From NCBI RefSeq assembly GCF_016793705.1, contig NZ_JAEULO010000025.1, forward strand, positions 50,168-114,167: a stretch of DNA of 64,000 nt, written 5' to 3'. Each line of letters begins with the position of its first letter. Positions within the stretch are counted from its first letter, which is position 1. A model generated the notes under the pieces. That model made no database searches. It was not told the origin of the DNA and saw nothing but the letters and a program-made list of their open reading frames with translations. The translations under genes and the position numbers were made by a program. The DNA is from Tabrizicola sp. (GTDB lineage: Bacteria > Pseudomonadota > Alphaproteobacteria > Rhodobacterales > Rhodobacteraceae). Of this stretch, positions 17,205 to 49,746 are shown in pieces.

Positions 17205-17214
17205 GGCGGAAGTG

Positions 17215-17985
17215 ATGAGCGTGGTGCAGAAAACCCGCCGGGGAGAGGTCGCAATCCGCGACCTCTCCAAGAGCTTCGCGCTGAACGGCCAGCGCCTGAA
17301 TGTCTTGCGCAACCTGGACCTCGCCATAAAGGGCGGCGAGGCGTTGGCCATCGTCGGCCCGTCGGGTTGCGGCAAGACCACGTTGCTGCGGGTGCTTGCG
17401 GGTCTTGAAAACCCCGACCAGGGCGAGGTGCTGATCGACGGCCAGCGGGTCGAGGGTGTCGGAACCGAACGGGCCATCATCTTCCAGGAGCCGCGGCTTC
17501 TGCCCTGGCTGACCGTTCTCGGCAACGTCAGCTTCGGCCTGCAGGTCCGCGGCCATTCCCCTGCCGAGGCCGAGGCCCGTGCCCGACATTACATCCGGCT
17601 CGTGGGCCTTGCCGAATTCGAGACCGCCTTTCCCCGCCAGCTTTCGGGCGGCATGTCCCAACGCGTCGGCATCGCCCGCGCCCTGACGGTGCAGCCGGAG
17701 ATCCTGCTTCTGGACGAGCCTCTCGGCGCGCTTGATGCCATGACCAAGCTGACCATGCAGGAAGAACTCGCCCGCATCTGGCGCGAGGAAAAGGTGACGA
17801 TGGTGCTGGTCACGCATGACCTTGAAGAGGCGATCTTCCTGGCGGACCGGGTCTTGGTCCTGCCGAAGGAGAAGGGAGCGATGCCGCGCCTGATCGAGGT
17901 GGGCCTGCCGCGTCCGAGGGATCGAAGCGAAACCCGCTTTGTCGAAATGCGCCGCCGCCTGATGGCGGAGTTCGGGCTGCACTGA
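17215..17985 (+). CDS. Sulfonate/taurine-type ABC transporter ATP-binding protein (SsuB-like)
   Basis: A 256-residue ABC ATPase: Walker A VGPSGCGKTT, Q-loop FQEPRLLPW (the FQEPRLLPW form is typical of SsuB/TauB/NrtD), signature LSGGMSQR, Walker B LLLDEPLGALD and switch VTHD. The ATG at 17215 (MSVVQKT) follows the binding-protein stop by ten bases with a GGCGGAAG ribosome-binding site. It is the last gene of the operon; a small hairpin (CCGGC-N7-GCCGG, 18010-18026) follows, without a T-tract. Confidence 0.93.
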   Translation: MSVVQKTRRGEVAIRDLSKSFALNGQRLNVLRNLDLAIKGGEALAIVGPSGCGKTTLLRVLAGLENPDQGEVLIDGQRVEGVGTERAIIFQEPRLLPWLTVLGNVSFGLQVRGHSPAEAEARARHYIRLVGLAEFETAFPRQLSGGMSQRVGIARALTVQPEILLLDEPLGALDAMTKLTMQEELARIWREEKVTMVLVTHDLEEAIFLADRVLVLPKEKGAMPRLIEVGLPRPRDRSETRFVEMRRRLMAEFGLH

Positions 17986-18034
17986 CCCCCTCCGCTCCAG
18001 CCAGAATTCCCGGCCCCCAAAGCCGGACCGACCC

Positions 18035-18172
18035 ATCTCCGGCGACTGCCGACGGCACTACAGGTTGTACCCTCGTGGTCGCGGGTTCGAGACCCGCCGC
18101 ACCCTCAGTCGGAGGGTGCGTAGCTCAGCCGCATAGAGCACGACCTGTCGCCGACCCATGTCGCCGGGGAGC
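18035..18172 (+). ncRNA. yrlA: Permuted tRNA-like RNA, probable bacterial Y RNA (YrlA type)
   Basis: The segments of a tRNA occur in swapped order. A T-arm (GCGGG-TTCGAGA-CCCGC, 18081-18097) is followed at once by an acceptor 3' strand CGCACCC (18098-18104), a 9-base cap, the acceptor 5' strand GGGTGCG (18114-18120), TA, and a D-arm (GCTC-AGCCGCATA-GAGC, 18123-18139). The anticodon-stem position is a helix made by the two ends: ACAGGTTGT (18060-18068) with ACGACCTGT (18140-18148). An outer helix CCGGCGAC (18039-18046) with GTCGCCGG (18160-18167) is separated by an internal loop. Bacterial Y RNAs of the YrlA class have this design: a closed tRNA mimic on a stem formed by the 5' and 3' ends that binds the Ro60 homologue Rsr. 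No rsr gene is in the window. A permuted tRNA gene or decayed tRNA is the alternative. Confidence 0.68.
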
Positions 18173-18194
18173 ATGAGTTGAGCGAATGGAGATG

Positions 18195-18428
18195 ATGACC
18201 GAAGCGAATTCTCCCTTCACCGGGGATGACCTGAAAGCCTGGGGCCACCGACCTGGTGTCGCCGCGCTGGCGCGAGGGGCGAAGCGCGGGGCTGTGCGTG
18301 CCCTGCTTTCCGTCGAGCTACTGCCCCGGTGCTCGACCTTTTGCCTGCAGGCGCGGTTCAGACGCCGGTGCGGGGATGCTTGTCGGGTCGCGCCATCTGC
18401 AAGGCCATGTTGTAGCACTCCGGTGTAA
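18195..18428 (+). pseudogene. Short ORF with RtcB/nucleotidyltransferase-like N-terminal motif, possible relic
   Basis: An ORF of about 77 codons starts 28 bases after the Y-RNA-like element. Its first residues, MTEANSPFTGDDLKAWGHRPG, resemble from memory the N-terminal TG-DL-A-G-PG motif seen in some RtcB RNA ligases and in nucleotidyltransferases. The remainder is arginine- and cysteine-rich and resembles nothing known, as expected for a decayed or frameshifted gene. In known rsr loci the order is rsr, Y RNA, rtcB, which fits this position. Both the coding status and the rtcB link are tentative. Confidence 0.3.
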
Positions 18429-18486
18429 CACCGAAGCCAATCAAGCCCTTGAGAACAGCCAAGTTTCTGATCTTGAAGAAGAAAAA
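18429..18486. other. Short non-coding gap before tRNA-Thr
   Basis: AT-richer stretch (CAAGTTTCTGATCTTGAAGAAGAAAAA on the plus strand is at its end). Contains ACTCCGGTGTAACACCG, a small hairpin (CGGTG-TAA-CACCG, 18420-18432), which could end transcription from the Y-RNA region. On the minus strand the T-rich run directly after the tRNA 3' end can terminate tRNA transcription. Confidence 0.3.
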
Positions 18487-18561
<75 letters not shown>

Positions 18562-47154: not shown

Positions 47155-49746
47155 ATGCCAGTCGTCGTCGTGGAATCCCCTGCCAAGGCCAAGACAATCA
47201 ACAAGTATCTCGGCCCTGACTTCACCGTCCTCGCCTCCTACGGCCATGTCCGCGACCTGCCGGCCAAGGACGGCTCGGTCGATCCGGACCACGGCTTCGA
47301 CATGCTCTGGGAGGTGGCGCCCGAGTCGAAGAAACACGTCCGCGCCATCGCCGAGGCGCTGAAATCCGACGACACGCTGATCCTCGCCACCGACCCGGAC
47401 CGCGAGGGCGAGGCGATCAGCTGGCACCTGAAGGAGGCCCTGCAAAGCAGCCTGAAAAAAGGGAAAAACGTCGCCCGCGTGACCTTCAACGCCATCACGA
47501 AAGACGCCGTGACCAAGGCGATGAAGGAACCGCGTGACATCGACACGCCCTTGGTCGAGGCCTATCTCGCCCGCCGCGCGCTGGACTATCTCGTCGGGTT
47601 CACCCTCTCTCCCGTCCTCTGGCGCAAGCTTCCCGGCGCAAAGTCGGCGGGCCGGGTGCAGTCGGTCTGCCTGCGGCTCATCGTCGAGCGCGAGATGGAG
47701 ATCGAGGCGTTCAAGGCCCAGGAATACTGGACCGTCAAGGCCGTCTTCCGCACCCCCCGCGGGCAAGAGTTCGAGGCCGGGATGGTCACCCTCGGCGGCA
47801 AGAAGCTGGCCAAATTCGACATTCCCACCGCGACGGCCGCCGAGCTTGCGGTCGAGGCCGCGAAGCACCGCGATTTCAAGGTGATAGCGGTCGAATCGAA
47901 GCCTGCGACCCGTAACCCCTGGCCGCCCTTCATGACCTCGACCCTCCAGCAAGAGGCCTCCCGCAAATACGGCATGGGCGCCAAGCAATGCATGAACGCC
48001 GCGCAACGCCTGTATGAGGCGGGGCATATCACCTACATGCGGACCGACGGCATCGACATGGCCCCCGAAGCGGTGATGGCAGCGCGCGACGAGATCAAGC
48101 GCCGTTTCGGAGACGGCTACGTTCCGGATTCTCCCCGCATGTACAAGAACAAGGCGAAGAATGCTCAGGAAGCACATGAATGCATCCGACCGACCGACAT
48201 GGCCCTTGGGCCGGAGAAGATCCGCGTCGAGGACGACCAGCGCAAGCTCTATGACCTGATCTGGAAGCGGACCATCGCGTCCCAGATGTCGGCCGCGCGG
48301 CTAGAACGGACGGCGGTCGACCTGGCCTCGCCGGATGGCCAGGTGGCGTTCCGTGCGAATGGGCAGGTGGTGCTGTTCGACGGCTATCTCAAGGTCTACG
48401 ATCAGGGCCGCGACGACCGGCAAGAGGGCGAGGACGACGACGAAGGCCGCCTGCCGCAGGTGATGCAGGGCGAGGCGCTGGCCAAGGGCGCGATCACGCC
48501 GGACCAGCATTTCACCCAACCCCCGCCGCGCTATACCGAGGCCACTCTGGTCAAGCGGATGGAAGAACTGGGGATTGGCCGACCCTCCACCTATGCCTCG
48601 GTCCTGTCGACGATCGTCGACCGGGAATATGTCCGGAAGGACAAGAACCGCCTCTTCCCGGAAGACAAGGGGCGGCTCGTGACGGCCTTCCTGTCGAACT
48701 TCTTCCACCGCTACGTCGAATACGACTTCACCGCCGACCTCGAGACCGAGCTTGACGATGTCTCGGCCGGGGACCGCGACTACAAGGACGTGCTCGCCCG
48801 CTTCTGGCGCGACTTCTCGGCGGCGGTGGCAGAAACGGCGGACCTGCGGATCGGCGAGGTGCTGGAGAAGCTGGACGATTTCCTGGCGCCCCACCTGTAT
48901 CCGGCCCGGGCCGACGGCGGCGATCCCCGCATCTGCCCGACCTGCGGGACCGGGCGGCTGCACCTGAAGACGGCGCGGTCGGGTGGGGCGTTCATCGGCT
49001 GCGGCAACTACCCGGAGTGCCGGTATACGCGGCCCCTCGCCGGGGATGCGGAGTCCGTCGCCTCGGACGGGCGGGTGCTGGGGCAGGACGAGAACGGGGT
49101 GGAGATTTCCCTGCGGGCGGGCCGCTTCGGGCCCTATGTCCAGCGCGGCGAGGCTTCGGAAGCGAACCCCAAACCCGACCGGGCCAGCCTGCCGAAGGGC
49201 TGGACGCCGGATGGCCTCACGCTGGAGCGGGCGCTGGCGCTGTTGTCGCTGCCGCGCGAGGTGGGCAGGCATCCGGAGGATGGCGTGCTGGTCGAGGCCG
49301 GGATCGGGCGGTTCGGGCCCTATGTGAAGCATGGGTCGGTCTATGCCAACATCCCGGAGGTGGAGGAGGTCTTCACCATCGGGATGAACCGTGCGGTCGA
49401 GGTGCTGGCCCAGAAAGCCCAGCGCGGGGCGGGGCGGGCGGCGCCCGCAGGGCCGTTGAAGGTGCTGGGGGCGCATCCGGACGGGGGCGAGGTCCAGGTG
49501 ATGCCGGGCCGCTATGGGCCCTATGTGAAATGGGAAAAGGTGAATGCGACGCTGCCGAAGGGGGTGGAGCCGGAGGCGGTGACGCTGGAGGAGGCGCTGG
49601 TCCTGATCGCGGAGAAGGCCGGGAAAGCGGGAGGCCGGAAGAAGGCGGCTCCGAAGAAGGCGGGAACCTCGGCGAAGAAGGCGGCCCCGAAGAAAACGGC
49701 GGCGAAGAAGGCTCCGGCGAAGAAGAAGGCGGTCTCGGCGGAGTGA
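47155..49746 (+). CDS. topA: DNA topoisomerase I
   Basis: An 863-residue type IA topoisomerase that relaxes negative supercoils. The TOPRIM motif is VVVESPAKAKTI plus LATDPDREGEAISWHL (acidic triad about residues 80-86). The catalytic Tyr is about residue 294 in ITYMRTDGIDM, and GRPSTYASVLSTI is a further core motif. One Cys4 zinc finger (CPTCGTGRL...GCGNYPEC, from about residue 593) is followed by repeated FGPYV modules. It ends in a Lys/Ala-rich histone-like tail with KKAAPKKA-type repeats. The ATG at 47155 (MPVVVVES) matches family starts. Confidence 0.98.
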   Translation: MPVVVVESPAKAKTINKYLGPDFTVLASYGHVRDLPAKDGSVDPDHGFDMLWEVAPESKKHVRAIAEALKSDDTLILATDPDREGEAISWHLKEALQSSLKKGKNVARVTFNAITKDAVTKAMKEPRDIDTPLVEAYLARRALDYLVGFTLSPVLWRKLPGAKSAGRVQSVCLRLIVEREMEIEAFKAQEYWTVKAVFRTPRGQEFEAGMVTLGGKKLAKFDIPTATAAELAVEAAKHRDFKVIAVESKPATRNPWPPFMTSTLQQEASRKYGMGAKQCMNAAQRLYEAGHITYMRTDGIDMAPEAVMAARDEIKRRFGDGYVPDSPRMYKNKAKNAQEAHECIRPTDMALGPEKIRVEDDQRKLYDLIWKRTIASQMSAARLERTAVDLASPDGQVAFRANGQVVLFDGYLKVYDQGRDDRQEGEDDDEGRLPQVMQGEALAKGAITPDQHFTQPPPRYTEATLVKRMEELGIGRPSTYASVLSTIVDREYVRKDKNRLFPEDKGRLVTAFLSNFFHRYVEYDFTADLETELDDVSAGDRDYKDVLARFWRDFSAAVAETADLRIGEVLEKLDDFLAPHLYPARADGGDPRICPTCGTGRLHLKTARSGGAFIGCGNYPECRYTRPLAGDAESVASDGRVLGQDENGVEISLRAGRFGPYVQRGEASEANPKPDRASLPKGWTPDGLTLERALALLSLPREVGRHPEDGVLVEAGIGRFGPYVKHGSVYANIPEVEEVFTIGMNRAVEVLAQKAQRGAGRAAPAGPLKVLGAHPDGGEVQVMPGRYGPYVKWEKVNATLPKGVEPEAVTLEEALVLIAEKAGKAGGRKKAAPKKAGTSAKKAAPKKTAAKKAPAKKKAVSAE

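Follow-up and report, generated by a model that had tools for sequence, protein, structure and literature searches.

The window analyzed here, a 64,000-nucleotide stretch of a contig from Tabrizicola sp. (NZ_JAEULO010000025.1), contains a YrlA-type Y RNA that is most probably left over from a deleted RNA-repair operon and freed from Ro60 binding. A fragment of rtcB follows the RNA, which suggests that an operon of the type rtcR-rsr-Y RNA-rtcB was deleted here and left this residue. The coordinates of the element and its surroundings are collected in Table 1.

Table 1. Features of the orphaned YrlA locus and of the comparable locus in genome G447
Feature	Position	Strand	Basis or remarks
ABC-transporter ATPase gene	17212-17985	+	oriented towards the YrlA and ending ~50 bases short of it
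Stretch homologous to the last YrlA and rtcB start of G216 and G208	18023-18256	+	blastn
YrlA-type RNA, orphaned	18038-18168	+	Rfam RF02553, 62.4 bits at 18039-18170; model R1, 91.3 bits at 18035-18174
Basal helix H1, 5' strand	18038-18045	+	pairs with 18161-18168; R1 alignment; covaries in 25 relatives
C replacing A of GAAUGC	18046	+	alignment of rsr-linked YrlAs; A in 46/46 linked copies
Helix H2, 5' strand	18051-18058	+	pairs with 18145-18152; R1 alignment
T-arm	18081-18097	+	stem GCGGG/CCCGC at 18081-18085/18093-18097, loop TTCGAGA; stem intact
Acceptor-like stem and short cap loop	18098-18120	+	direct reading, R1 alignment; intact
D-arm	18123-18139	+	stem intact; loop without GG
Helix H2, 3' strand	18145-18152	+	R1 alignment
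A replacing first U of CUUG	18158	+	alignment of rsr-linked YrlAs; U in 46/46 linked copies
Basal helix H1, 3' strand	18161-18168	+	R1 alignment
rtcB remnant, truncated	18192-18354	+	MAFFT: conservation of the first codons, followed by a 30-nt gap and, farther on, a broken frame
DUF6538 gene stub, at most 16 codons, beside tRNA-Thr	18361-18408	-	blastn to G208, frames
tRNA-Thr (GGT)	18487-18561	-	ARAGORN, Rfam
G447 rsr stub and YrlA	L140 9852-9941 and 9971-10100		rsr cut to 30 codons; YrlA, rtcR, and rtcB look intact

A YrlA-type RNA with an intact tRNA-like module

The Rfam YrlA covariance model, which the initial annotation had proposed as a check on its assignment, matches over its full length (E = 1e-13), bearing out the YrlA type. 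This is the sole YrlA match at an E value of ≤0.001 across the element's own genome. Its score lies below the RF02553 gathering score of 69 bits, and a default Rfam scan of the window lists the tRNA-Thr only. The last YrlAs of two rsr-bearing congeners, G208 (58.9 bits) and G216 (52.1 bits), likewise fall under the gathering score, and Rfam ranks the element above both. The predicted fold has a stability z score of -4.9, and none of 200 shuffles was equally stable.

Direct reading shows the T-arm, acceptor strand, cap, second acceptor strand, and D-arm in the order first described, which is that of YrlA, with standard pairs in the stems. All seven acceptor pairs (18098-18104/18114-18120) are indeed Watson-Crick, and they remain so although the acceptor sequence differs from that of the congeners. 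The cap consists of nine bases (18105-18113), the ends of which could pair additionally as T-A. The D-arm is absent from the minimum-energy fold and is placed by the family alignment; the GG missing from its loop is present in 42 of 43 parsable YrlAs linked to rsr (3 of the 46 linked copies could not be parsed).

Basal stem and family structure

When 25 YrlAs from the order were aligned, a structure of five helices was supported. Its outer helix (H1) is followed by an internal loop and a second helix (H2), after which come the stems of the T-arm, acceptor, and D-arm. Within this structure, 99.6% of 749 cells are paired, and 14 of 30 pairs have changed on both sides, in 76 such cells; none of 500 shuffles reached as high a value by any measure. 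The D stem is invariant across the alignment and is thus neutral with regard to covariation. The ends of the element pair as this covarying basal stem, H1 fully and H2 in six of eight pairs, the two broken ones being 18052/18151 (A-C) and 18058/18145 (C-C).

Two helices had initially been described for the paired ends, and covariation among relatives separates them. The outer 8-bp helix covaries in relatives, but its eighth pair (18046-18160) is specific to this copy and exists because the A that is invariant among linked copies is C here. The inner 9-bp helix, ACAGGTTGT/ACGACCTGT (18060-18068/18140-18148, with one G-U pair), is present and is part of the minimum-energy fold, but it overlaps the covarying H2 of the relatives and lies outside the family structure. 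Drift in the acceptor or T-arm, which had been named as one of the signs of a decayed tRNA remnant, is not what we observe, as the drift sits in the basal stem and the acceptor and T-stem are spared.

The RNA-repair operon of relatives and its probable remnant

In relatives, a divergent rtcR precedes rsr (the gene for the Ro60 homologue), an array in which several Y RNAs are joined by tRNAs, and rtcB. Among 198 family genomes, 86 have a YrlA match at an E value of ≤0.001, and neighborhoods were compared for the 12 matching at 62 bits or more, which include the element's own genome. An rsr-like frame and a divergent rtcR-like frame adjoin the YrlA in all 11 of the other strong family loci, a count that is not independent of the search, the profiles having been built from these same frames. 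Pfam names the tested frames as vWA_Ro60 (3/3 rsr), RtcR (2/2), and RtcB (2/2), and the 11 rsr frames have 63 to 79% identity to the first. An rtcB frame lies downstream in 9 of the 11 loci; the contig ends first in L048, and L046 shows none. Canonical tRNA genes (Asn, Gln, Lys, and Pro) stand amid the Y RNAs downstream of rsr in 9 of 13 operon loci (L039, L040, L044, L045, L047, L048, L049, L101, and L102). At 1802-7252 of L102, from G208, rtcR, rsr, and rtcB are each split into two overlapping frames, owing to decay or to assembly errors. A sigma-54 pattern, with up to three mismatches allowed, was matched in the rtcR-rsr gap of 1 of 12 relatives, with none in G447; in positions 17701-18045 of the window it was not found on the plus strand, which given its rarity in relatives carries no information, and it had one 2-mismatch match on the minus strand.

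At the locus studied here, open rtcR, rsr, and rtcB frames are all lacking, and the 20 kb searched holds an rtcB 5' fragment only, with no piece of rsr or rtcR. The former presence of rsr and rtcR is therefore read from the layout in relatives. Identity to G216 is 78.6% over 18023-18256 and to G208 is 83.0% over 18039-18253 (blastn), and the rtcB ATG lies ~25 bases past the end of H1. The distal part of the remnant (18261-18354) aligns with the G208 rtcB with a score of 71, compared with a shuffled maximum of 41 (0/1000), whereas the score of 31 against the G216 rtcB was reached by 52 of 1000 shuffles and is not significant; the limit of homology at about 18354 is thus set by G208 alone of the two congeners. 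Beyond it, 18360-18598 matches the tRNA-Thr flank of G208 at 86.8% (blastn), and the tRNA-Thr gene begins ~130 bases past the end of the remnant. The corresponding frame in the G208 flank is longer, is also broken, and carries Pfam DUF6538. We take DUF6538 to be an N-terminal domain of phage-type integrases, so that the stub would be integrase-like; PHROGs gave no match in the two G208 pieces, and Pfam gave none in the second. On the other side, the ABC-transporter genes ending at 17985 do not occur in the congener stretches compared, save for matches of 100 to 112 bases in two of them, and no sigma-70-like promoter was found in 17850-18490.

Absence of rsr and co-occurrence of YrlA with rsr

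The initial annotation had reported no TROVE-domain gene nearby, and this absence extends to the whole assembly, which is 94.5% complete. Pfam TROVE is insensitive, matching in 6 of 11 family genomes that have an rsr frame beside YrlA, and we therefore rechecked the absence with profile A1, built from the rsr of relatives, and with NF041674; none of the three found rsr in the genome. The usual nearness of YrlA to rsr is lacking both at the locus and in the assembly, and another of the readings first offered, a Y RNA whose partner is encoded far away, gains no support.

Elsewhere, the two genes go together. Across 32 genomes of the genus, a strong YrlA occurs in three (the element's own genome, G208, and G216) and an A1-detected rsr in two (G208 and G216). 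The 390 genomes searched in the order include 24 with YrlA (E ≤ 1e-8), 23 with rsr (E ≤ 1e-10), and 22 with both. G251 has rsr without a YrlA at this cutoff, and model R1 finds weaker Y RNAs there (best, 59.8 bits). In the class (327 genomes), YrlA occurs in the element's own genome, G229, and G640, and the latter two carry rsr. Taken over the family, genus, order, and class searches, rsr accompanies a strong YrlA in 33 of 35 distinct genomes, and the two without a full rsr are the element's own and G447.

Changes at conserved sites

The element was compared with 46 rsr-linked YrlAs from 32 genomes, a set that leaves out the degenerate G171b and keeps G163b and G166b, which have no D-arm. The element breaks 2 of the 33 alignment columns that are identical throughout this set. 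The two changes, at 18046 and 18158, lie one on each strand of the internal loop in the basal stem, so that the conserved AAUGC and CUUG nucleotides, which presumably contact Rsr, are not preserved. When each linked copy was left out in turn, 40 broke no invariant column, five broke one, and one, lacking a D-arm, broke three. Two broken H2 pairs occur in none of the 46 linked copies and one broken pair in four. Among columns conserved at the 90% level along the entire RNA, the element is exceeded in broken columns by four linked copies and equaled by two; in the basal stem, a single linked copy (G116b) breaks as many at 90%, three break at least as many at 95%, and none does so at 85%.

Model R1, which was trained on YrlA copies from other genera, gives the element 91.3 bits, whereas the last YrlAs of the two congeners reach 114.6 (G208) and 100.1 (G216). 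A search of 14 loci (L046 and L049 left out) with this model returned 58 matches, 39 of them below 88 bits; among the 19 that reached 88 bits, one alone scored lower than the element. Changes specific to one copy number seven in the basal stem and three in the tRNA-like part of the element, against 1 and 11 in the two congeners (Fisher P = 0.006), in a small, unrooted, three-genome comparison made after the data had been seen, with events counted by hand, paired changes counted twice, and flanks, the variable loop, and columns at which all three differ left out. Decay is partial, as the outer helix and every pair counted in the T, acceptor, and D stems remain intact. According to a review (PMC4726728), vertebrate Y RNAs no longer bind Ro60 when their lower stem is altered; the review also describes bacterial Y RNAs as not homologous to them, and the comparison is therefore one of analogy only.

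Proposed origin

We infer that a whole operon once stood at the locus, near tRNA-Thr, with a divergent rtcR followed by rsr, a Y RNA array, and rtcB. Deletions would then have removed rtcR and rsr and spared, of the Y RNA array, just its final member, which adjoins the rtcB start. Of rtcB, the 5' end alone would have been left, put against the DUF6538 gene stub beside tRNA-Thr. The basal stem, in which two nucleotides that are otherwise invariant have changed and two helix pairs are broken, would have altered once Rsr was gone; this order of events is the one we favor. A small fragment comprising the last YrlA and the rtcB start that had moved alone would look identical. As Rsr is gone and the stem has changed, the RNA appears to be no longer a Ro60 tether and to have lost Rsr binding and its role in degradation, and it presumably lacks a function. 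Should it be transcribed by read-through from the ABC-transporter operon, the product would be either a tRNA mimic and nothing more or an inert RNA.

Alternative explanations

The decayed basal stem could also belong to a working YrlA that does without Ro60, in which the basal stem is free to change while selection maintains the tRNA-like module in a role of its own, which might be that of a partner of, or a decoy for, PNPase or tRNA enzymes. The paired T, acceptor, and D stems are consistent with this, as are the divergent yet paired acceptor sequence and the unbroken YrlA that stands beside open rtcR and rtcB in G447 despite a 30-codon rsr stub. However, rtcB is broken here as well, no promoter-like site was seen in 17850-18490, and the D-loop GG is lost. 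Moreover, the start of rtcB is still well conserved, and therefore the loss is suggested to be recent, with too little time for decay. We regard a Ro60-free function as unlikely. The same low standing applies to the broader idea that YrlA can shed Ro60 and persist as a free tRNA mimic, the tRNA-like half being under selection alone in the element and the G447 YrlA working with RtcR and RtcB, which we would entertain only tentatively.

Alternatively, the element may be a working YrlA whose rsr is encoded elsewhere in the genome and was missed through incomplete assembly or divergence. An assembly that is 94.5% complete leaves some room for such a gene, and Pfam TROVE by itself is insensitive to the rsr frames of relatives; against this, A1 and NF041674 find none either, rtcB is visibly cut at the locus, and two otherwise invariant basal-stem nucleotides have changed, so that a distant working partner is very improbable. 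Still further from the data is a circularly permuted tRNA gene, the third reading first offered, or a chimera of two adjacent tRNA genes. Weak Rfam YrlA hits of 29 to 40 bits do form a false-positive class of this kind, consisting of two neighboring tRNA genes in 21 of 21 loci (L013-L030 and L053-L055), in a check that covered 18 of the other 74 family genomes with a YrlA match. The element, however, scores 62.4 bits across the whole model, and joining its halves yields no anticodon arm; instead, its ends pair as in Y RNAs, in a stem that covaries in relatives. ARAGORN, one of the tRNA finders proposed initially and run here without its permuted mode, detects no tRNA in the element and only the tRNA-Thr in the window. 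The chance that the element is a tRNA gene is therefore close to nil, and a YrlA left behind by its operon remains our preferred explanation.

Relation to known systems and a second loss of Ro60

PNPase is engaged via the tRNA-like part of YrlA, whereby structured RNA is directed to degradation. Rsr, Y RNA, and PNPase are described as forming an RNA-degrading particle, in which the basal stem binds Rsr and the tRNA-like part binds PNPase (PMC8394870), and the Salmonella RNA-repair operon is described as responding to tRNA fragments (PMC8394870, PMC7790460). With the YrlAs of bacterial rsr-yrl-rtc operons, such as that of Salmonella, the element shares the permuted T-arm/acceptor/D-arm module closed by a cap, the long stem formed by the paired ends, and a site just before rtcB. 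It differs from them in that no rsr was found in genome searches and no rtcR within 20 kb, in that rtcB is truncated, and in that changes affect two basal pairs as well as two basal-stem nucleotides that do not otherwise vary. The RtcR-controlled operon, as presented in PMC7790460 (rsr-yrlBA-rtcBA), has the same gene order as the remnant; rtcR, rsr, Y RNAs, and rtcB are all found in the relatives, whereas one Y RNA and an rtcB fragment stand alone at this locus. Limited literature searching found no orphan YrlA in the published text that it reached.

The G447 locus (L140) has the order rtcR, rsr stub, YrlA, and rtcB, and neither its rtcR frame nor its rtcB frame is interrupted over the profiles. 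What is left of rsr is a 30-codon frame the start of which resembles rsr (0 of 2000 shuffles were as good). The G447 YrlA scores 108.7 bits, has no broken pair and no change at an invariant column, and differs at three of the columns conserved at the 90% level. Since it is intact beside an rsr stub, YrlA can outlive rsr. The two loci are alike in that YrlA was retained after the loss of rsr and differ in the open rtcR and rtcB and the unbroken YrlA of G447; together, they turn a Ro60-independent job for YrlA into a testable question. The element itself is a natural test of what keeps a Y RNA in shape, for with the Ro60 gene gone, otherwise invariant basal-stem nucleotides change while the tRNA-like stems stay intact. 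It also serves as a warning that a lone YrlA hit need not signal a working Ro60 particle.

Other features of the window and genome

An attachment-site repeat at the tRNA-Thr was considered and rejected, as the window contains just one copy of the exact prefixes of 14 to 20 bases from the 3' end of this tRNA. An R1 search for YrlA remnants near the tRNA-Thr genes of congeners (38 loci) gave one weak match (18.5 bits), which is on contig C26 of the element's own genome and overlaps a tRNA-Ser. Within the window, 47785-47847 on the minus strand also gives a weak match to the family model (17.8 bits); it covers the basal stem only, lies within long open frames, and is probably due to chance. The element's own genome encodes a separate RtcB paralogue (L103 2596-4008, contig C26) near a frame that by eye resembles ribosomal protein L21, and similar RtcB matches are present in G204 and G212. 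The tRNA-Thr 3' end (window positions 18486-18513) has a 28-base match elsewhere in G211, G219, G224, and G226, which may mark an integration site.
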